A stretch of DNA of 34,615 nt. Origin: a virus. Both the position numbers and the translations under genes were made by a program. The notes beneath the pieces are model-generated. The model had not been told where the DNA came from. It was given only the letters and a program-made list of their open reading frames with translations, and searched no databases. Positions 1 to 34,615 of the stretch are shown here, piece by piece. Location: IMG/VR virus record IMGVR_UViG_3300031865_000003, positions 1 through 34,615 of that record; one strand, given 5' to 3'. Each line of letters begins with the position of its first letter. Positions within the stretch are counted from its first letter, which is position 1.

Positions 1-1
1 G

Positions 2-103
2 TGGGTCACGCCCAGCCAGCTCGGCCTACCGACCGAGCTCGCTGTCCTCCGGCCCGTGGCCGAGCAGGTGGCTGCGTGTCGCAAGACGGTGACGTCTGGG
101 TAG
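2..103 (+). CDS. C-terminal fragment of a small pre-lysis phage protein (copy A)
   Basis: The window opens inside this gene; only the last 33 residues and the TAG stop are present. The DNA is the same, except one base, as the 3' end of the 89-aa gene at 32402-32671, which fixes the reading frame (first full codon at position 2). No function is recognisable. It is the last gene before the lysis cassette in both copies, so it probably belongs to the tail/lysis boundary of a related phage lying upstream of the window. Confidence 0.7.
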   Translation, partial: WVTPSQLGLPTELAVLRPVAEQVAACRKTVTSG

Positions 104-131
104 CGACGAGCGAGGACCAGGAGTGGGTTGC

Positions 132-152
132 GGGGCGGCTCGTCGCCGCCCC
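132..152 (+). promoter_or_regulatory. Leader hairpin ahead of lysis cassette, copy A
   Basis: An 8-bp GC-only stem (GGGGCGGC / GCCGCCCC) with a five-base loop TCGTC lies between the upstream stop codon and the strong Shine-Dalgarno of the first lysis gene. The same hairpin stands at 32700-32720 in copy B. There is no T-tract, so an mRNA processing or attenuation element is as likely as a terminator. Confidence 0.5.
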
Positions 153-175
153 TGGTCGTTCGAAAGGAGGTCAAG

Positions 176-505
176 GTGGAGTTGAGCCTCGAGATGTTAC
201 TCGCGATCCTGAGCTCCGCGACGGTGAGCACGCTCGCCGGGTACGGTCTGCACCGGCGCATGTACCGCGCGCAGACCGAGGCCGCTACCGCCGACGCGCT
301 CGCGCGCTATCAGAACGTCATCTCGGGGCTCTGGCAACGGCTCGAGGAACTCGAGCGGCGCGCGTACGAATTGCAGCGGCACATTCACGAACTCGAGCAC
401 GAAGTCGAGAACCTCCGACTCCTGGTTAAGGCCTACGAGAATCGATTCGGGCGGCGGTTCACGATCATGAGCGGGCGCGTCGTCGAGCTCGAGGAAGGGG
501 GCTGA
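176..505 (+). CDS. Small membrane-anchored coiled-coil protein of lysis cassette A
   Basis: A 109-aa protein starting at GTG 176, chosen because AAAGGAGG sits at 163-170. Residues about 5-24 form one hydrophobic segment. Residues about 40-95 are a long Glu/Arg/Leu-rich coiled coil with heptad-like spacing. It occupies the slot taken by a holin in copy B and is followed five bases later by a second membrane protein, so a role in membrane disruption or its timing is likely. One N-terminal membrane helix plus a coiled coil resembles an inner-membrane spanin, but a spanin is not expected in a host without an outer membrane. XhlA-like proteins have the opposite order. Function is inferred from context only. 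Confidence 0.7.
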   Translation: MELSLEMLLAILSSATVSTLAGYGLHRRMYRAQTEAATADALARYQNVISGLWQRLEELERRAYELQRHIHELEHEVENLRLLVKAYENRFGRRFTIMSGRVVELEEGG

Positions 506-510
506 CTGCC

Positions 511-732
511 ATGAAACTTCCCGAATACGAGTTCAAACCGCTGGCCGAACTCGCGTGGTTCGTGCTCGTCGCCGTCATGACCGTTCTGTTCCAAGCGCTC
601 GCTGAATTCGAACCCTCTCGCATCGAGGACTGGCGAACGTGGTTCGTCGCGCTCGGTGCGGCGATGGTGCGGGCCGGCGCAGGTGCGGCGCTCGCCTGGC
701 TTACCCGACGCGGCGTCACGCGGGAGCCGTGA
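511..732 (+). CDS. Putative two-helix holin (copy A)
   Basis: A 73-aa protein with two hydrophobic segments, residues about 11-33 and 45-66, separated by a charged turn and ending in a short basic tail (RRGVTREP). This is the shape of class II holins, which open the membrane so that endolysin reaches the wall. A purine-rich GAAGGGGG ribosome site precedes the ATG. It follows the coiled-coil gene within six bases, with zinc-ribbon and endolysin genes downstream. It has no sequence resemblance to the holin in copy B. No family was recognised; the call rests on size, topology and position. Confidence 0.65.
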   Translation: MKLPEYEFKPLAELAWFVLVAVMTVLFQALAEFEPSRIEDWRTWFVALGAAMVRAGAGAALAWLTRRGVTREP

Positions 733-748
733 AGCATGGAGGGAAGTC

Positions 749-1144
749 GTGCGCTGGTCTCTCGGCTGGTTCCCCTGCCCGCATTGTTGTTATCCGTACG
801 ACGTTCTAAAACTCTGGCTCGGCGCGATCGAGACTTGCGTCGCATGCGGTGAACCCTTGCGCCCGGGTTCTGCGCGACGCGTCGTCGAACGCGGCCGCAC
901 GGTCGATCTCGTGACCTGCCCGTGGTGCGGCGCGACGCAGCGCTGGTCTGCGCTCGAGCGGATCGGTCTCGACGAGCGACGAGAACGCGTCCGCTACGAG
1001 TGTCACGAGTGTCGGCGGCCGTTTACCGTCGAGCACGATCCGACCACGGCCGGTCAGGCGAGTCTCGCTGAGCTCGACGAACGAGAACGAGCATGGCTCC
1101 TTTTCATGCGCAGTCTCGTGCGTAGCGGGGAGATCGAACCATGA
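749..1144 (+). CDS. Zinc-ribbon protein of the lysis cassette (copy A)
   Basis: A 131-aa protein starting at GTG 749 after GGAGGG. It has four cysteine pairs: CPHC near residue 8, CVAC near 31, CPWC near 60 and CHEC near 88, which should fold as two zinc ribbons, followed by an acidic helical tail. The homologue at 33209-33604 keeps all pairs although many other residues differ, so metal binding is under selection. Its stop overlaps the next gene's start (ATGA), indicating translational coupling. No family with a known job was recognised. It could be a DNA-binding regulator or a chaperone-like factor; its place between holin and endolysin is constant in both cassettes. Confidence 0.8.
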   Translation: MRWSLGWFPCPHCCYPYDVLKLWLGAIETCVACGEPLRPGSARRVVERGRTVDLVTCPWCGATQRWSALERIGLDERRERVRYECHECRRPFTVEHDPTTAGQASLAELDERERAWLLFMRSLVRSGEIEP

Positions 1145-1458
1145 CCGCCATGCATAACGGGCTCGTCACGCTCTTCGCCGCGCTCGCGAACCAGGGCATC
1201 GCGGTCGTGGCGTGGTACGAGCACGATCATGCGATCGGCCTCGTGGTCGCGGGCGGGCACGTGATCGAGGTCGAGCGGCGGCGTGCGTGCGGTGAGCCGC
1301 TCGTGGTCGCGGACATGCTCGCGCAGTATCTCCCGCGCCGGTCTGTCCCGCGCGAGTACGACCCCTCTGGGGTGCCGGAGATCGCGCCGTCCACCGCGCG
1401 CTGGTGGGAGTTTTTGCGTTGGTATCGCTCTGAACGGTGCGAGGGGGTGAAACGATGA
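1141..1458 (+). CDS. Conserved 105-aa protein between zinc-ribbon gene and endolysin (copy A)
   Basis: A soluble-looking 105-aa protein with a conserved centre containing AWYEHDHAIGLVVAGGHVIEV, three Trp near the C-terminus, and no signal peptide or membrane helix. It starts on an ATGA overlap with the zinc-ribbon gene and ends four bases into the endolysin, so the three are a tightly coupled unit. Copy B (33601-33918) is almost the same protein, and more than 100 bases in the centre are identical in DNA. This is far closer than the neighbouring zinc-ribbon gene, which suggests recent recombination. Function unknown; an endolysin partner or lysis-timing factor is possible. Confidence 0.8.
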   Translation: MTAMHNGLVTLFAALANQGIAVVAWYEHDHAIGLVVAGGHVIEVERRRACGEPLVVADMLAQYLPRRSVPREYDPSGVPEIAPSTARWWEFLRWYRSERCEGVKR

Positions 1459-2732
1459 GTGTGAGCGAGCTTCTCGTGGTGGGTGTGCTCCCGAGGATTT
1501 CGGCTGACCGATTTGCGGCGTTCCTGCGCGAGGTAGGTTCGCCGGCTGCCGCCGAAGCGCACGATGCCTGGTCGGCGGTCGCGGCCGAGGGGGTCGATCC
1601 CCTGTTCGCCTTGGCGGTCTTCTGGCACGAGTCGCGCGCTGGAACGACCGGCGTCGTCGCGCAGTATAACCTCCGCAACCCGGGTGCGACGCGGTCCAGC
1701 CGGACGGGCGTCGGCGAACCCGTCACTATCCCCGGCCGGGGCCAGTTCTGGCGCTATCCTAATTGGGTAGCAGGTTTTCTCGATCTTGCGCGGCGGCTCG
1801 TCGACCCCGGCTTCGTCTACCGCCAGCGCGGTGCCTGGAGCGTCGAGCAGATCATCCCGCTCTGGGCGCCGGCAAGCGACGGCAACAACCCAGCGAGCTA
1901 CGTAGCCGCGGTGCGCTCGTTCATGGCCAAGCATGGGAGCGAGCCGCTCGGCGACGTTCCGCTCCGCATCGCCTGGATACCCGCCGGTGCGCGGAACCGC
2001 CCCGGGTATCCCATGCGACCGGCGTGGATCACGATCCACGAGACGGCGAACGAGGCGCGCGGGGCGAACGCTGAAGCGCATCGTCGGTTCGTGCACGCTG
2101 GTGGTGGACCAGAGGGCGTCAGTTTCCACTTCGTCGTGGATGATCGCGAGGTCGTTCAGCTCCTGCCGACGCTCGAGAACGGCTGGCACGCCGGCGACGG
2201 TGCGAACGGCACGGGAAACCGCGCGTCGATCGGCATCGAGCTCTGCGTGAATGCCGACTCTGACTGGGAGCGGACGCAGGAGCACGGCGCGCGACTCGTG
2301 GCTGCGCTGTGCCGCGCGTTCGGTTTGCCCGTCGAGCGCGTGGTGCCGCACCAGCACTGGAGCGGCAAGCAATGCCCACGCCGGATACTGGCTCAAGGGT
2401 TCGACGGCTTCCGCAATCGGGTGCGGACGGCATTGGGGGTGAACGTGGAGAAGCCAGCGATCGTCCAGCTCGGGCCATACGGCCGTCACGTGGGACACGG
2501 GTTCCTCGAGTTCTGGCGACAGATGGAGCGTGTGCACGCGACGCTTCCACTCCGCGTGCTCGGCTGGCCGCGCAGCGAGGAGTTCTCGCACGACGGCGCG
2601 ACGTACCAAGTTTTCGAGCGTGCCGTGCTTAAGTACGACGCTCGCGAGCAGGGAGAATGGCGCGTCCATGTCGCCCTGCTCGATGAGGCGTTGCGCGTCG
2701 TCGACTCCGCACGTGCGCGCGGTCTGCTGTGA
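1455..2732 (+). CDS. Endolysin: N-terminal glucosaminidase-like domain, Amidase_2 domain, C-terminal FER-type domain
   Basis: A 425-aa peptidoglycan hydrolase. Residues 1-160 resemble phage glucosaminidase-like domains (FWHES with a candidate catalytic Glu59, then a YNLRNPG motif). Residues 188-325 are an N-acetylmuramoyl-L-alanine amidase of the Amidase_2/T7-lysozyme type; zinc ligands should be His195, His299 and Cys307, the last two eight apart as in T7 lysozyme. Residues 331-425 carry a GHGFLEFW...GWPRSEEF...FERAVLKY pattern, a repeat domain I associate with Chloroflexota secreted proteins, probably for wall or glycan binding. ATG 1455 is preferred over GTG 1437 because GAGGGGG lies at 1441-1447. 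There is no signal peptide, so export relies on the holin. It is the last gene before a strong terminator. Confidence 0.93.
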   Translation: MSVSELLVVGVLPRISADRFAAFLREVGSPAAAEAHDAWSAVAAEGVDPLFALAVFWHESRAGTTGVVAQYNLRNPGATRSSRTGVGEPVTIPGRGQFWRYPNWVAGFLDLARRLVDPGFVYRQRGAWSVEQIIPLWAPASDGNNPASYVAAVRSFMAKHGSEPLGDVPLRIAWIPAGARNRPGYPMRPAWITIHETANEARGANAEAHRRFVHAGGGPEGVSFHFVVDDREVVQLLPTLENGWHAGDGANGTGNRASIGIELCVNADSDWERTQEHGARLVAALCRAFGLPVERVVPHQHWSGKQCPRRILAQGFDGFRNRVRTALGVNVEKPAIVQLGPYGRHVGHGFLEFWRQMERVHATLPLRVLGWPRSEEFSHDGATYQVFERAVLKYDAREQGEWRVHVALLDEALRVVDSARARGLL

Positions 2733-2779: not shown

Positions 2780-2820
2780 CGGTGGTTTCGCCTGTGCCAT
2801 GACCTTTCTCCTTACCACCC

Positions 2821-3069
2821 CTAGCCTGCTCGGTTTGCCCACTCTCTCATGGCTTCCTCTGCCAGCGCAGCTACGTGGCGTTCAATGCAGTGCTCCTCGT
2901 CATCGCTTTCCGCCAAGACGCGGCAGCATCTGCCATCGTCCACGACGAGGATCCACGCGTCGGGGTACGCGCGTTGGATCTTGGCGGCGAAAAGCTCGAA
3001 GAGGTCTTCGAAAAACACGCCGCCTTGTTGATCAGACCAGCAGTTCCGGGCAAGCTTAATCACCAACAT
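2821..3069 (-). CDS. Hypothetical 82-aa phage protein
   Basis: Last gene of the minus-strand cassette. The start at 3069 is chosen because AAGGGAGG lies just upstream on the minus strand. The protein has a mixed hydrophobic core (FFEDLFELFAAKIQRAYPDAWILVVDDG), a Cys-Cys pair and an acidic middle; it has no membrane helix or known motif. It probably forms a compact alpha/beta fold. No function can be assigned. It shares its direction and presumably its transcript with the six genes upstream. Confidence 0.65.
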   Translation of the reverse strand: MLVIKLARNCWSDQQGGVFFEDLFELFAAKIQRAYPDAWILVVDDGRCCRVLAESDDEEHCIERHVAALAEEAMREWANRAG

Positions 3070-3130
3070 ACTATCCTCCCTTCTCGCACGTACAGGGGTG
3101 CGGAGCGCGTGCAAGGCGTTGGCGCACGGC

Positions 3131-3595
3131 TCATCCCTCCGCCAATCGTGCCAGCCGCAGCGCGCCCTCGAACGACTGCGGCCGACGGCCAGGGCCTGGC
3201 GTCAGGTCGAGCGCTTCGCACCCCCAGGCGAGGCGTAGGATGAGCCCCAGCCGCGCGATCGGGTCGAGTGCGGCGATGCGCTCGGCGAGGCGATGGGCAG
3301 TTGTGTCATCGACGCCCGCGAAGGCGGCTTCATCGAGGATCGCCGTCGGCAGATTCTTGACTTCGACCTGGACGCGCGGTTCGCCGGTGGCGTTCCGCGC
3401 GCGGGGACGCCACTCGCGTGCGATGGCGAGGAGCGCCTGCGCCTCGTCGTCGGGAAGCGCAGGCGCCTCGTCCATCAGCGCGAGCGCCCATTCCAAAAGG
3501 ACACGGCCGAGCGCCCCAGCAGGGGCGCCGGCGGCCGTGTAACGTTCGATCGCGCTGGCCAGGGCGCGATCGAGATACACAGTTGGCCGCTTCAC
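3131..3595 (-). CDS. Hypothetical 154-aa protein with ribbon-helix-helix-like N-terminus
   Basis: The N-terminus (KRPTVYLDRALASAIERY followed by an amphipathic helix) looks like a ribbon-helix-helix DNA-binding fold of about 45 residues: one beta strand, then two helices. The remainder is Ala/Arg-rich and helical with a Pro-Gly stretch near residue 132. The start overlaps the stop of the upstream gene by four bases (ATGA). If the RHH reading is right, it could be an autoregulator binding the paired operators upstream of this cassette; this is a guess. No similar characterised protein is known to me. Confidence 0.65.
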   Translation of the reverse strand: MKRPTVYLDRALASAIERYTAAGAPAGALGRVLLEWALALMDEAPALPDDEAQALLAIAREWRPRARNATGEPRVQVEVKNLPTAILDEAAFAGVDDTTAHRLAERIAALDPIARLGLILRLAWGCEALDLTPGPGRRPQSFEGALRLARLAEG

Positions 3596-3900
3596 GCTGT
3601 TACCTCCTCCCAGACCACCAGCCAGGCCACCGATGGTTCACCCTCTCCCCATCGAAGATAACCGTACCCCGGCAGACGTAGAGCCTCCTCGACAGGCAGT
3701 GCTTCAGGTGCCGGGCGGGCATCGCGCACGCGGACAAACGGCCAGTGTCGGCGCATCGCATGTTCGACGTCAAGGGCGACGAACCCGTCCGGCCCGGCCG
3801 CACCGCGCTCGTGCCAGGGCCACGTCGTGTAGAAGACGTCGGCGTGGAACGGCGGCCGACAGTATGCGTTGCAGGAGTGAACGAAAGAGGAGGTGGTCAT
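3592..3900 (-). CDS. Hypothetical 102-aa phage protein
   Basis: A Trp/Pro-rich small protein (WPWHERG, WPFVRV, WLVVWEE) without membrane helix or known motif. It is coupled on both sides: its start overlaps the upstream gene by four bases and its stop overlaps the next start by four. Two Cys near residues 10-14 are not arranged as a zinc site. Function unknown. Confidence 0.65.
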   Translation of the reverse strand: MTTSSFVHSCNAYCRPPFHADVFYTTWPWHERGAAGPDGFVALDVEHAMRRHWPFVRVRDARPAPEALPVEEALRLPGYGYLRWGEGEPSVAWLVVWEEVTA

Positions 3901-4118
3901 GCGACCACCTCCTCTTCGTCAGCAATGAAGGTCATAACGGTATCGTCCCCGCCGTACTCCGTAACGAGGACACCCTCGTCCTCGTCAAACTCGACGCGGC
4001 GGTGGCTCGCGCGGCACTCCTCGGCCGCGCGGCGAAGGTATGCCAGCGCGGACTCGCGGCTGGCGAACGACGCCACAAGGCGCAGCGCCCCGTCAACGGT
4101 CCGCGAAATCACCAGCAT
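3897..4118 (-). CDS. Hypothetical 73-aa acidic phage protein
   Basis: Starts at 4118 with AAAGGAGT eight bases upstream; a longer reading back to 4214 lacks a ribosome site and runs into the previous gene. The protein begins with a beta strand (MLVISRTVDGALRLVASF), then a helix (SRESALAYLRRAAEECRA), then a strongly acidic C-terminal half ending DEEEVVA. Small acidic proteins of this kind in phages are sometimes inhibitors or DNA mimics, but nothing here proves it. Confidence 0.65.
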   Translation of the reverse strand: MLVISRTVDGALRLVASFASRESALAYLRRAAEECRASHRRVEFDEDEGVLVTEYGGDDTVMTFIADEEEVVA

Positions 4119-4123
4119 AGTTA

Positions 4124-4492
4124 CTACTCCTTTCCCTCTTCCTCCTGCAAGCACGCCATACACACGTCGTAAGGACCCGAAAGCGGGATTAGGGGGTGCG
4201 CTGGGCAGTGCCACCCCCAGCCCAGCCCCCTTACGATGGACTCAGCTTCGTCCACCGTAAGGGCGCCTTCATGGACCAGGCGGCTCGCCAATCGAATGAG
4301 CGCGAACGCGCGCTCTCGATCGGCCCAGACATGGTCCAGCTGGCCCTTGCCAGTTGACCATGCCTCGGAAACCACCCGATAGTTGTACGGCTTGGCGATG
4401 AGGACTACGAGCGCACCCGCGCGCGCTCGCGAGTCCTCAAAGTAGACCTCGTCAAAATACAGAGAACAATTGGGAAAGTCGAACGCCTTCAT
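4124..4492 (-). CDS. Hypothetical 122-aa protein with C-terminal Cys/His pair
   Basis: ATG 4492 is taken as start because AAAGGAGG is five bases upstream; a GTG one codon earlier is too close to it. The body is alpha/beta with several aromatic residues. The C-terminus holds CPAH and CMAC about 16 residues apart, a possible small zinc site. Function unknown. It lies six bases upstream of the next gene in the same transcript. Confidence 0.65.
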   Translation of the reverse strand: MKAFDFPNCSLYFDEVYFEDSRARAGALVVLIAKPYNYRVVSEAWSTGKGQLDHVWADRERAFALIRLASRLVHEGALTVDEAESIVRGLGWGWHCPAHPLIPLSGPYDVCMACLQEEEGKE

Positions 4493-4527
4493 CACATCCT
4501 CCTTTCTGTTTGTTCTCTTGATTTGTC

Positions 4528-4893
4528 TTATTCCTCGTCGATCCAGGCATCAATGTAGAATGGTTCCCAGACATCCCCCATAATGTCTGGGTACGCGTCG
4601 GACGGCCTATTTCCGGGCACGACATAGACGCCGTGCCCGTACCGGGACAGGTCGATCTTCTCGGCCTGTTCTGGTGGGTCGGCCACAATTGTGTCGCCGC
4701 ATGCCCAGCCAGCCAGCGCGGTCTGGCCAGCGAGCGCAAGCTCGGCAACCTGCCTGGCTCGCTCTGACGGTAGCCATTCGAGCCAGGCGGCCAAGTGATC
4801 AAGCGCATCCTCATATGAGGACACGGCAATGCGCTCTACTTCAGCTGTCACACATCCCTCCCAGATGACTCCGGCACAGATAACCAGTTCCAT
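4528..4893 (-). CDS. Hypothetical 121-aa protein, first gene after promoter P1
   Basis: Ribosome site GAGGGGAGG precedes ATG 4893, only about 20 bases from the start point expected from promoter P1. The protein is acidic, Trp-rich and helical in the middle (EDALDHLAAWLEWLPSERAR) with a tyrosine-rich C-terminal half. No domain recognised. As the promoter-proximal gene of a six-gene run it should be the most strongly expressed of them. Confidence 0.7.
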   Translation of the reverse strand: MELVICAGVIWEGCVTAEVERIAVSSYEDALDHLAAWLEWLPSERARQVAELALAGQTALAGWACGDTIVADPPEQAEKIDLSRYGHGVYVVPGNRPSDAYPDIMGDVWEPFYIDAWIDEE

Positions 4894-5541: not shown

Positions 5542-5583
5542 GGCGTATTGATCACAACGTGATCACGTTGTGATCAATACGCC
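5542..5583. repeat. 42-bp perfect palindrome at the 3' end of the integrase gene
   Basis: Both 21-base arms match exactly with no spacer. Inside are three TGATCA hexamers at 5549, 5560 and 5571, spaced 11 bp, so they face one side of the helix. It abuts the integrase stop codon. No T-tract follows on either strand, which argues against a plain terminator. A protein-binding site (integration accessory site, operator or copy-control site) is more likely; each hexamer contains GATC. Confidence 0.85.
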
Positions 5584-7088
5584 TAGCCCCATGCCCACGA
5601 CCACCCTCTGGGATCGCTTCCTGAGGCTGTGACTCGCACACGAAGCACCTCCAGGGCCTGCCGCCGCTCGCTTTCGTCCATTTGTTGGAGGTTGATTCGC
5701 ACCCGCCGTGCGTACTCGGCGAGCGAGACAAGTTCGATCTCCTGCCGTTGCCGCTCAGCGAGTGCCTGCTCGACCTCGGTCAGCAGGTGGCGTAGTCGCT
5801 CGCGCTCCGCCTCCAGCTCCGCCACCTGCCGGCGTACGAGCTCCCAGAGTGCATCATCGTCGTCCTCGGCGCGGGCGTACCGGCGAACAAGCCGTTCCTG
5901 CTGTGCGGCAATCCGTGCCAGTTCCCGTTCGATACTCGCACGCTGCCGCTCCAGTTTATCATCGCGCGGAGTATGCCGCCGACGCTCCAACTCGGCTTCG
6001 ATCAGCCGGAGATCGCTGAGCAGAGCCGAAACCTGGTCCCAGATCCAGCGCTCAATCCGTTCAGCCGGAACGCGACCGGCACCGCAGGCACCGCTCGGAA
6101 ACTCGCGCGAGGAGCAGCGGTAGATCCGACGGCCACGATCGACATCGGCATACATTCGTCGTCCGCAGACGGCGCAGCGAATGAGTCCGCGCAGGAGATA
6201 TGGTCGCTGCTCGTTCCGCGCACGCTCGCCGTGGTTCTGGCGCAACCGCTCCTGGGCGGCCAGCCAAAGCGACCGCTCCACGATCGCCGGCGTGACCCCG
6301 TCCGGTAGCCTGAGCCACTCGCCCGGATCCCGCAGACGGGGATTTCGGCCTGGCCTGGCCTCCCATCGCAATGCCCACGTCTCGCCCATGTATGCCGGAT
6401 CGGTAAGGATGCGGCGCACTGTAGATTTCCCCCAGTGTGGCGTGTGACCATCGCGATACTGACGCCGCGATATTGCTGGTGCTGGTACACCCTCCCCGTT
6501 CAGCCTGCGCGCGATCTCGCGCAGTGAGAGCCTATCAAGGACATACCAGTGATAGATACGGCGCACGACATCCGCCTCGACTTCGCAGATGACACGCCGC
6601 CCTTCCTCGTGCCGGTAGCCGTAGAGCGGTGCGGAAGCGGCGAGAAACACGCCACGTTCCAGTAAGGCCCGCTTGGCTCGCATGGTGCGCTCACGAATCT
6701 GTGTCCACTCACGCTTGGCTGCCCAACCACGCACGAACGCGACCAGAGTTCCGGTGTCGTCCTCTGGGACGCGCTCGGTCACACACGCGAGCGCAACACC
6801 AGCGATACCGAGCAGGACCCGCACGGCGGTCACGTGTTCCGGGTCGCGCGACAGCCGATCGAGCGCATGGCAAACGACGAGGTCGAAGACGCCCCGCTGT
6901 GCATCGGCGAGGAGGCGCTGGAGTTCCAGCCGTTCCCACACCGTGCCCGATGCTGTGTCGGCGTAGACTGCGACGACAGTATGGCCGTGCTCGGCGCACC
7001 AGGCGCGGCAGGACGTCTCCTGTGTTGGCAGGCTGGCGTTGTTGGCCTGTTCGTCCGTCGAGACACGGCAGTAAATTGCTGCACGCAT
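5583..7088 (-). CDS. Large serine recombinase (phage integrase)
   Basis: A 501-aa site-specific recombinase that cuts and joins attP and attB through a serine-DNA link. Residues 1-145 are the resolvase-type catalytic domain (YCRVSTDEQ with nucleophile Ser10; an HALDRLSRD motif near 74-82). Residues about 155-290 are the recombinase DNA-binding domain. A zinc ribbon follows (Cys305, Cys308, Cys325, Cys335), interrupted further on by a coiled coil of about residues 358-455 as used for synapsis control, then a short C-terminal tail. All catalytic features look intact. It is transcribed away from the repressor, last in the lysogeny operon, with its 3' end touching the 42-bp palindrome. No separate directionality factor was identified. 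Confidence 0.95.
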   Translation of the reverse strand: MRAAIYCRVSTDEQANNASLPTQETSCRAWCAEHGHTVVAVYADTASGTVWERLELQRLLADAQRGVFDLVVCHALDRLSRDPEHVTAVRVLLGIAGVALACVTERVPEDDTGTLVAFVRGWAAKREWTQIRERTMRAKRALLERGVFLAASAPLYGYRHEEGRRVICEVEADVVRRIYHWYVLDRLSLREIARRLNGEGVPAPAISRRQYRDGHTPHWGKSTVRRILTDPAYMGETWALRWEARPGRNPRLRDPGEWLRLPDGVTPAIVERSLWLAAQERLRQNHGERARNEQRPYLLRGLIRCAVCGRRMYADVDRGRRIYRCSSREFPSGACGAGRVPAERIERWIWDQVSALLSDLRLIEAELERRRHTPRDDKLERQRASIERELARIAAQQERLVRRYARAEDDDDALWELVRRQVAELEAERERLRHLLTEVEQALAERQRQEIELVSLAEYARRVRINLQQMDESERRQALEVLRVRVTASGSDPRGWSWAWG

Positions 7089-7126
7089 CGACTAGCCTTT
7101 CTCAGGACTTTCAACGACCTTGTCTG

Positions 7127-32061: not shown

Positions 32062-32445
32062 ATGAAGTTGCGCTACCAGTTCCACGAGACCGAGCCGATC
32101 GTCGTCCACGAGTCCGGTGCGTGCTACGTGCAGGTCACCTGGTACGACGAGGAGAAGGGCTCGGTCGTCCTCATCGACCAGGTTCCCGCTCCCTACGCGC
32201 CGTTCTATCAGGGCGCGGAACTCGAGCGCTACGTCCACGCCGTGCTGGCTGAACGGGCCAAAGAGCTGACAAGAGAGCAAATCCACCCGCCGCAACTTGC
32301 TGAGGCGCGAGCGCGGCTTGCTGGTCGTGTCTTCCGGATCGACCCGGAGGCACAGCGAATCGTCGAAGTCGTCGCGAAAGAGCTACCAGTGGAGGTCGAC
32401 CGTGGAGTTGCACCTCGCGATACCCGTGGTCGTCCGACGTCCTGA
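32062..32445 (+). CDS. Hypothetical 127-aa tail-region protein
   Basis: ATG 32062 has GGGGGG upstream; the in-frame GTG 32047 overlaps the preceding stop and has no ribosome site. The N-terminal half is beta-rich (IVVHESGACYVQVTWYDEEKGSVVLIDQVPAP), the C-terminal half helical and charged. No motif recognised. It may be a fibre accessory or chaperone, judged by position after the tail tip. Confidence 0.65.
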   Translation: MKLRYQFHETEPIVVHESGACYVQVTWYDEEKGSVVLIDQVPAPYAPFYQGAELERYVHAVLAERAKELTREQIHPPQLAEARARLAGRVFRIDPEAQRIVEVVAKELPVEVDRGVAPRDTRGRPTS

Positions 32446-32671
32446 CGGCCTCATCGCCTACGTCATCGAGTCCGACGGCGTGACGACGACCGCGCGTTGG
32501 GTCGGCCCGTTCCCCGATGCGAAAACGATCGTGGCCTGGATCGAGACGCGTGCGGCGGAGATCGAGGAGTGGGTCACGCCCAGCCAGCTCGGCCTACCGA
32601 CCGAGCTCGCTGTCCTCCGGCCCGTGGCCGAGCAGGTGGCTGCGTGTCGCAAGACGGTGACGTCTGGTTAG
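32402..32671 (+). CDS. Hypothetical 89-aa pre-lysis protein (complete homologue of the fragment at window start)
   Basis: GTG 32402 lies six bases after GGAGG and overlaps the previous gene by 44 bases. Protein with two beta strands, a helix (DAKTIVAWIETRAAEIEEWV) and a C-terminal helix. The last 103 bases equal positions 1-103 except one base. Function unknown. Confidence 0.7.
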   Translation: MELHLAIPVVVRRPDGLIAYVIESDGVTTTARWVGPFPDAKTIVAWIETRAAEIEEWVTPSQLGLPTELAVLRPVAEQVAACRKTVTSG

Positions 32672-32699
32672 CGACGAGCGAGGACCAGGAGTGGGTTGC

Positions 32700-32720
32700 G
32701 GGGCGGCTCGTCGCCGCCCC
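32700..32720 (+). promoter_or_regulatory. Leader hairpin ahead of lysis cassette, copy B
   Basis: The GGGGCGGC / GCCGCCCC stem with loop TCGTC, identical to that at 132-152, 10 bases before the AAAGGAGG of the holin. Confidence 0.5.
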
Positions 32721-32743
32721 TCGTCGTTTGAAAGGAGGTGAAG

Positions 32744-33190
32744 ATGGAGTTCCCGGAGCGGCTCAAGTCTTTCGCTGGCACAGTAGCCGTTGTCGCTGGG
32801 GTCATCGGTCTCTTCCTCGCGCACGTACCGGAGACCGTCATGGCTTTATGGTTACTGATGGGTCTGGACATCCTAACCGGTTACGTCTCGGCCGGGATCC
32901 GCGGGGAACTGTCGTCCGAGGTGTCGTGGCAAGGCATTAAGCGGAAGATCCAAACACTGCTCATGGTGGTGACTGCGTGGGTTATCGAGAGCTTTCTGCC
33001 GATCAACCTTCCAATGTCGCTGACATCCGCGATCGCGCTCTTCTACTGCGCCAACGAGGGGCTCTCCATTCTGGAGAACGTCGCAGAAGCGGGCGTGCCG
33101 GTCCCGCGAGTGCTCCGCAATGCACTGGCGCGCCTGAAGGACGACCAGGAGTCGGACGGCAACGGCGCATCGCGAGACAGCGACGGTTAG
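32744..33190 (+). CDS. Phage holin, family 4/TcdE-like
   Basis: A 148-aa protein, ATG 32744 five bases after AAAGGAGG. Three hydrophobic segments (about 11-29, 31-50 and 72-92) and the family signature LLMGLDILTGYVSAGI ... GELSSEVSWQGIKRKIQTL ... FYCANEGLSILENVAEAGVPVPRVL. It forms membrane lesions that release the endolysin. This gene replaces the two membrane genes of copy A, between conserved flanks, a clear modular swap. Confidence 0.93.
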   Translation: MEFPERLKSFAGTVAVVAGVIGLFLAHVPETVMALWLLMGLDILTGYVSAGIRGELSSEVSWQGIKRKIQTLLMVVTAWVIESFLPINLPMSLTSAIALFYCANEGLSILENVAEAGVPVPRVLRNALARLKDDQESDGNGASRDSDG

Positions 33191-33208
33191 GTTGAGGAGA
33201 GAGGAGCA

Positions 33209-33604
33209 GTGCGCTGGTCGCTCGGTTGGCTGCGTTGCCCGCATTGTTGTTACCCGTACCATGTGTCGGTCGTCTGGTCCGGGGCACGAGACGCCTGCGT
33301 TGCCTGCGGGGAGCTATTGGTGCCCGGGTCGGCACGACGCGTTGTCGAGCGCGGGCAGACGATCGATATCGTCACCTGCCCCTGGTGCGGGGCAGAGCAG
33401 CGCTGGGCAGCCATCGAGCGGCTGGGGCTTGCGGAGCGACGCGAGCGGGTGCGCTACCGGTGTCACGAGTGCCTGCGCCCGTTCACCGTCGAGCACGAAC
33501 CGACCGAGCCGGCACAGGCGACATTCGCGGAACTGGACGAGCGCGAGCGTGCCTGGCTCGCGTTCATCCGTGCGCTGGTACTGAGACGGAGAGTCGAGCC
33601 ATGA
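33209..33604 (+). CDS. Zinc-ribbon protein of the lysis cassette (copy B)
   Basis: A 131-aa homologue of the gene at 749, GTG start after GAGGAG. The four cysteine pairs (CPHC, CVAC, CPWC, CHEC) and the CPHCCYPY and RRPFTVEH-like segments are kept; the region between the first and second pairs has diverged most. ATGA overlap with the next gene as in copy A. Confidence 0.8.
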   Translation: MRWSLGWLRCPHCCYPYHVSVVWSGARDACVACGELLVPGSARRVVERGQTIDIVTCPWCGAEQRWAAIERLGLAERRERVRYRCHECLRPFTVEHEPTEPAQATFAELDERERAWLAFIRALVLRRRVEP

Positions 33605-33918
33605 CTGCGACGCACAACGGTCTCCTCACGCTGTTCGCATCGCTTGCCAATAGAGGGGTCATGGTCGTGGCGTGGTACGAGCACGATCATGCGATCGGCC
33701 TCGTGGTCGCGGGCGGGCACGTGATCGAGGTCGAGCGGCGGCGTGCGTGCGGTGAGCCACTCGTGGTCGCGGACATGCTCGCGCAGTATCTCCCGCGACG
33801 GTCTGTCCCGCGCGAGTACGACCCCATTGGGGTGCCGGAGATCGCGCCGGCTACCGCGCGCTGGTGGGGGTTTTTGCGTTGGTATCACGCTGAACGGTGC
33901 GAGGGGGTGAAACGATGA
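33601..33918 (+). CDS. Conserved 105-aa protein of the lysis cassette (copy B)
   Basis: Homologue of the gene at 1141. About 15 of 105 residues differ, mostly at the ends; the DNA between 33666 and about 33755 is identical to copy A. No signal peptide or known domain. Coupled by four-base overlaps to the zinc-ribbon gene and the endolysin. Confidence 0.8.
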   Translation: MTATHNGLLTLFASLANRGVMVVAWYEHDHAIGLVVAGGHVIEVERRRACGEPLVVADMLAQYLPRRSVPREYDPIGVPEIAPATARWWGFLRWYHAERCEGVKR

Positions 33919-34615
33919 GTGCGAGCGAGCTTCTCGTGGTGGGTGTGCTCCCGAGGATTTCGGCTGACCGATTCGCGGCGTTCCTGCGCGAGGTCGGCTC
34001 ACCAGCTGCGGCCGAGGCGCACGACGCCTGGTCGGCGATCGCGACGGAGGGAGTCGATCCTCTGTTTGCCCTTGCCGTCTTCTGGCACGAGTCGCGCTGT
34101 GGGACGGCAGGGGTGGTCGCGCAATACGACCTCCGCAACCCGGGGGCGACGCGGTCCAGCCGCACCGGCGTCGGCGAGCCCGTGATCATCCCGGGCCGCG
34201 GGCAATTCTGGCGGTATCCCTCCTGGGTTCATGGCTTCCGCGACCTCGCGCGGCGGCTGGTCGATCCCGGCTTCGTCTACCGCCAGCGCGGCACCTGGAG
34301 CGTCGAGCAGATCATCCCGATCTGGGCGCCGGCGAGCGACGGCAACAACCCAGCAAGCTACGTAGCCGCGGTGCGCTCGTTCATGGCCAAGCAAGGGAGC
34401 GATCCGCTCGGTGACGTGCCGGTCCGGCTCGCTTGGGTGCCTGCTGGTGCGCCGAATCGACCGGCGTATCCGATGCGACCGGCGTGGGTCACGATCCACG
34501 AGACGGCGAACGAGGCGCGCGGGGCGAACGCTGAAGCGCATCGTCGGTTCGTGCACGCTGGTGGTGGACCAGAGGGCGTCAGTTTCCACTTCGTCGTGGA
34601 TGATCGCGAGGTCGT
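33915..34615 (+). CDS. Endolysin, copy B (3' truncated by the window end)
   Basis: The first 233 codons of a second endolysin, ATG 33915 after GAGGGGG. The glucosaminidase-like domain (FWHESRCGTAGVVAQYDLRNPG) and the start of the Amidase_2 domain (WVTIHETANEARGANAEAH) are present; the second half of the zinc site lies beyond the window. The final roughly 125 bases are identical to positions 2033-2155 apart from one base, so the window stops inside a near-exact repeat. Confidence 0.93.
   Translation, partial: MSASELLVVGVLPRISADRFAAFLREVGSPAAAEAHDAWSAIATEGVDPLFALAVFWHESRCGTAGVVAQYDLRNPGATRSSRTGVGEPVIIPGRGQFWRYPSWVHGFRDLARRLVDPGFVYRQRGTWSVEQIIPIWAPASDGNNPASYVAAVRSFMAKQGSDPLGDVPVRLAWVPAGAPNRPAYPMRPAWVTIHETANEARGANAEAHRRFVHAGGGPEGVSFHFVVDDREV

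Follow-up and report, generated by a model that had tools for sequence, protein, structure and literature searches.

A viral contig whose two ends probably represent variants of a single lysis locus with different predicted holin modules

Replacement of holin and endolysin genes via flanking homology has been directly observed for lactococcal phage P335 and prophage bIL286, and lactococcal endolysin types are found with several holin types (PMC9371310). The locus described here lies in a 34,615-base stretch of DNA (the window), which is an entire IMG/VR record with two copies of a lysis locus as its two termini. These copies, A at the left end and B at the right, most probably (at roughly 0.84) represent two population variants of one locus, assembled as slightly more than one turn of a circular or permuted genome. 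The hosts appear to be Thermomicrobium-like Chloroflexota, and comparison of the window with annotated phages at the DNA level gave no match. Feature coordinates are collected in Table 1.

Table 1. Features of the two lysis copies and neighboring regions; A and B denote the presumed haplotypes
Feature	Position	Strand	Remarks
Left flank, haplotype A: 3' end of gene upstream of lysis locus and ribosome site	1..183	+	First 99 bases exact
109-aa protein, one N-terminal hydrophobic helix and coiled coil, GTG start	176..505	+	Homologue in G132:C8, 44%
73-aa two-helix protein, holin-like by position	511..732	+	Homologue in G132:C8, 66%
Haplotype A zinc-ribbon-like protein, 131 aa	749..1144	+	73% identical to B protein (95/131)
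Haplotype A 105-aa protein, function unassigned	1141..1458	+	Likely recent exchange border at ~1203 inside
Haplotype A endolysin, complete, Amidase_2 (PF01510)	1455..2732	+	
Exact 127-base match to right contig end	2029..2155	+	Haplotype paths would merge here
Serine integrase adjoining lysis locus	5583..7088	-	93% identical in G132:C8
Gene upstream of lysis locus (longest ORF; likely start near 32402)	32297..32671	+	Full-length only in right copy
Left flank, haplotype B	32569..32751	+	97% identical to 1-183
Predicted holin, Phage_holin_4_1 (PF05105), 148 aa	32744..33190	+	Pfam, PHROG holin, hydropathy
Haplotype B zinc-ribbon-like protein	33209..33604	+	
Haplotype B 105-aa protein	33601..33918	+	
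Haplotype B endolysin, truncated by contig end	33915..34615	+	Last 127 bases are an exact repeat of 2029-2155

Self-BLAST of the window gave two long direct matches and no others: 1-183 with 32569-32751 (97.3%) and 749-2155 with 33209-34615 (85.0%, E = 0). The initial annotation had reported near-identical left flanks (1-175 and 32569-32743), matching genes from 749 and from 33209 onward, and unrelated membrane genes between them. The first two observations were borne out by these matches, though identity in the second is uneven. Across the intervening stretches (184-748 and 32752-33208), local DNA alignment scored 20, compared with a shuffled mean of 17.7 and with 45 of 200 shuffles scoring as high, and neither copy A membrane protein matched the copy B holin better than its own shuffled versions. 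By DNA score and protein shuffles alike, homology between the two sets of membrane genes is absent.

In copy B, the single membrane gene had been called a TcdE-like holin, and its match to PF05105 is clear (103.2 bits against a cutoff of 22.2, E = 1.2e-29, profile positions 2-116 of 116). The protein has four hydrophobic stretches, three of them strong and one weaker, in keeping with several transmembrane helices. It is a clear Phage_holin_4_1 member and, judged by its sequence, a predicted holin. Among annotated phages its closest matches share about 40% identity, and a query of viral contigs with this protein returned no match. PF05105 relatives were found on two contigs with a related endolysin, one of them also Thermomicrobium-like (L023, 45% identity; L005, 31%); in both, the gene is located away from the endolysin.

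The membrane genes of copy A are, as initially annotated, those for a coiled-coil protein (176-505) and a two-helix protein (511-732). With 73 aa, two hydrophobic stretches and a place in the locus of the endolysin, the second product has the layout of a class II holin, as does its counterpart in the relative G132:C8. It gave no PHROG match at E 0.1 and only sub-threshold, non-holin Pfam hits, and neither of the copy A membrane proteins matched a holin family. Because no such family was matched, the 511-732 product is called holin-like by position only; position, size and helices suggest a holin role for allele A. A match to the two-helix protein in another genome (G125) was set aside as an apparent remnant, its frame lying opposite to a longer ORF that neighbors an integrase. 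A phage search with the coiled-coil protein gave no match. PHROG 1244 (function unassigned) matched the first half of this protein (176-502) and, weakly, the last part of the zinc-ribbon protein (749-1141), which suggests that the two may be fused in other phages.

Downstream of the membrane genes, the endolysin matched Amidase_2 (PF01510) at 84.4 bits (cutoff 26), and a zinc-ribbon query of viral contigs gave no match. Third codon positions hold 138 of the 217 differences between copies A and B across the three genes, and the comparable part of the upstream gene contains a single, synonymous difference. With most differences at third positions, both alleles have the appearance of functional genes. 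Five loci (L004-L008) with both the 105-aa gene and the endolysin were rejected as further examples of the locus, the two genes standing there directly after a different terminase-like gene.

In three genomes of the Thermomicrobium-containing class (L024, L025, L060), the chromosome holds a shorter relative of the endolysin (~390 aa matched), apparently at one common place. In two of the three, terminase-like and portal-like ORFs (named by eye) follow downstream, along with further shared blocks; the whole may be what is left of an old prophage, or a phage block that has been domesticated, e.g., as a gene transfer agent. Many dispersed repeats of roughly 80-100 bases surround one of these copies (L060:4347-16906), which is 93% identical in DNA to the G132:C8 endolysin over 961 bases, suggesting exchange between chromosome and phage.

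Identity between the copies to the right of 749 is distributed in blocks: 71.6% over 749-1202, 96.7% over 1203-1534, 80.4% over 1535-1805, 96.1% over 1806-1933, 80.0% over 1934-2028 and 100% over 2029-2155. The longest identical runs are 127 and 96 bases, and the maximum in 2000 permutations of the mismatches was 67; because both runs exceed that maximum, the pattern does not come from evenly spread mismatches. Steps in identity are abrupt at the module borders, from 97% to none at 183 and from 72% to 97% at 1203, as recombinational exchange would leave them. Third-codon-position identity also shifts abruptly within the 105-aa gene, a change that would not be expected from selection on the protein. 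The block pattern is independent of how the assembler phased the haplotypes, provided that only two haplotypes exist.

Exchange borders had initially been placed at the ribosome site on the left and just before 749 on the right. The left border is sharp, at ~183, just past the first start codon. On the right, alignment resumes at 749 with only 72% identity; the step to ~97% near 1203 points to a likely recent right border there, inside the gene before the endolysin. The sequence comparison thus suggests that the recent exchange most likely replaced ~183-1203 and that the border at 749 is older.

The left copy opens partway through the gene that precedes the lysis locus, and the right one breaks off partway through the endolysin. 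At the left end the exact repeat is 99 bases (1-99 and 32569-32667), immediately followed by a mismatch; at the right end it is 127 bases (34489-34615 and 2029-2155), immediately preceded by one. The contig therefore has a direct repeat at both ends, divergent inside and exact over 99 and 127 bases at its termini. IMG metagenome contigs usually come from the JGI workflow, and assembly-graph pieces adjoin with an overlap of k, such that a contig hitting a branch point shows an end repeat of exactly k. In that workflow metaSPAdes is run with k = 33, 55, 77, 99 and 127 (PMC10604447), and both exact repeat lengths are among these values. If lengths were spread evenly over 30-150, the rough chance of both ends falling on a k value would be ~0.2%. 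We infer that the 99-base left end is best explained by a piece retained from the assembly round at k = 99, an extra assumption. Some points count against reading the contig as one turn of a circle: the record is given as linear in IMG/VR, and k-length end repeats alone would equally be expected if one genome truly contained a divergent repeat. An exact-repeat test would call the record linear because the repeat is divergent, presumably through passing over two haplotypes. Cut to one turn, the window holds a single set of terminase, portal, capsid, tail, lysis and integrase genes.

A search of 158 genomes from the Thermomicrobium-containing class turned up the locus on a single contig, G132:C8 (37,846 bp), where tail genes are followed by the coiled-coil gene, the two-helix gene, a phosphatase-like ORF, the zinc-ribbon gene, the 105-aa gene and the endolysin, with a serine integrase next on the opposite strand. 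Identity to the window is 60% for the zinc-ribbon protein, 50% for the 105-aa protein and 72% for the endolysin (values for the coiled-coil and two-helix proteins and the integrase are in Table 1). A nuclease gene reads in frame across the joined contig ends, and for this reason G132:C8 is taken to be circular. It has a single lysis cassette, between tail genes and integrase, and closing the window at its repeat gives the same map. Since its locus carries homologues of the allele A holin pair, that pair is the type common to both. The two genomes thus share the lysis locus and its position; they differ in the additional phosphatase-like ORF and in the terminase, for which the window protein found no match in G132:C8 and a query of genome contigs was likewise empty. 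A scan of viral contigs for the exact shared-flank patterns found no other contig, which also counts against the one-turn reading, although records very close to the window may be missing from the set searched.

The additional ORF of G132:C8 (345 aa, named by eye; 32433-33470, L059) lies between the two-helix and zinc-ribbon genes, and this variable stretch seems to be a hotspot of gene gain. The integrase block is 91% identical between the window (5542-7098) and G132:C8 (35911-37468) and its start coincides exactly with that of a 42-base palindrome (5542-5583), which may be a terminator or mark the border of an attachment site; an integrase query of viral contigs gave no match. In the ~2.8-kb gap between endolysin and integrase, the window has several small minus-strand ORFs without a Pfam match (2799-4893), likely accessory genes; in G132:C8 the integrase directly follows the endolysin.

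If the two cassettes of the initial annotation are read as carried within one genome, the window would be a tandem or dimeric phage unit, or adjacent prophages each with its own cassette. The contig as assembled does contain both, and a divergent repeat would likewise break assembly at k-mer repeats, but the copies sit at the extreme ends with identical outer flanks, one turn of a circle suffices without a second copy, self-BLAST found no second copy of any other gene, and the circular relative has one cassette. That reading is unsupported, and this arrangement is very unlikely; it is just as hard to credit that every genome has a dimeric or tandem dual lysis system made up of the two-component membrane module and the PF05105 holin. 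If the phage had long ago duplicated its lysis locus and the holin parts had then diverged in place beyond recognition, both modules would be expected at the same position between homologous flanks, as they are. The holin types are nevertheless unrelated (PF05105 and a pair without a family match), and flanks that stay ~97% identical up to 183 and from 1203 are not what gradual divergence, which gives no such steps, would leave; this origin is close to negligible.

An unlikely but less remote alternative is that the contig fuses two related but distinct phages at a shared stretch of the body, alleles A and B then being real but coming from different phage types and not from one population. The zinc-ribbon genes differ by 28%, above expectation for one clonal population, and phages of this group share modules at high identity yet differ elsewhere, as the 91% integrase block and the unmatched terminase of G132:C8 illustrate. 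On the other hand, the flanks contain blocks of 97-100% identity, and the genes of the window form a single, orderly set arranged in the standard order. Two variants of one lysis locus remain the preferred reading because the copies lie at the contig ends, the end repeats are of k length and the relative has one cassette. What stands of the initial annotation is exchange of a holin module between conserved flanks, with its sharp border at ~183, unrelated holins and blocky homology.

The sequence comparisons, the positions of the copies at the contig ends, the lengths of the repeats and the single cassette of the relative are observed; the circularity of the window genome, the coexistence of two haplotypes, the recombination event and the role of allele A as a holin module are all inferred. 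The genome would be temperate and siphovirus-like, ~32.5 kb, and circular, circularly permuted or concatemeric in the sample, with a single lysis locus between tail genes and serine integrase and at least two co-occurring haplotypes. The contig would enter via haplotype A, circle the genome once, re-enter via haplotype B and stop where the haplotypes become identical. Recombination at conserved flanks would have exchanged ~183 to ~1203, with smaller patches within the endolysin gene. Both alleles would serve the same function, a timed opening of the membrane by the holin through which the amidase endolysin reaches the wall.

The locus would thus be a clean case of phage variants occurring together with different holin types, from poorly sampled, apparently thermophile hosts. 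It also carries a warning: when a "duplicated" locus occupies both ends of a viral contig and the exact end repeats are of k length, this points to a circular genome with haplotypes, and tests of circularity that require an exact repeat miss contigs closed through two haplotypes.

Compared with known systems, the swap itself looks real and would be ordinary phage mosaicism, a fresh example of a known process. Allele B belongs to the same family as the TcdE-like holins of Phage_holin_4_1 and differs in its apparently thermophile host group. As in a circular contig with overlapping ends (direct terminal repeat), an end repeat encloses a phage gene set; unlike exact terminal repeats, that of the window is divergent, in accordance with two haplotypes. 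As with P335 and bIL286, a holin and lysis stretch appears swapped between phages that share flanks, and one endolysin type is found with several holin types. The lactococcal case was experimental and the endolysin was swapped too, whereas here the exchange is read from two natural haplotypes in one sample, and the endolysin family stays constant while the holin module changes.
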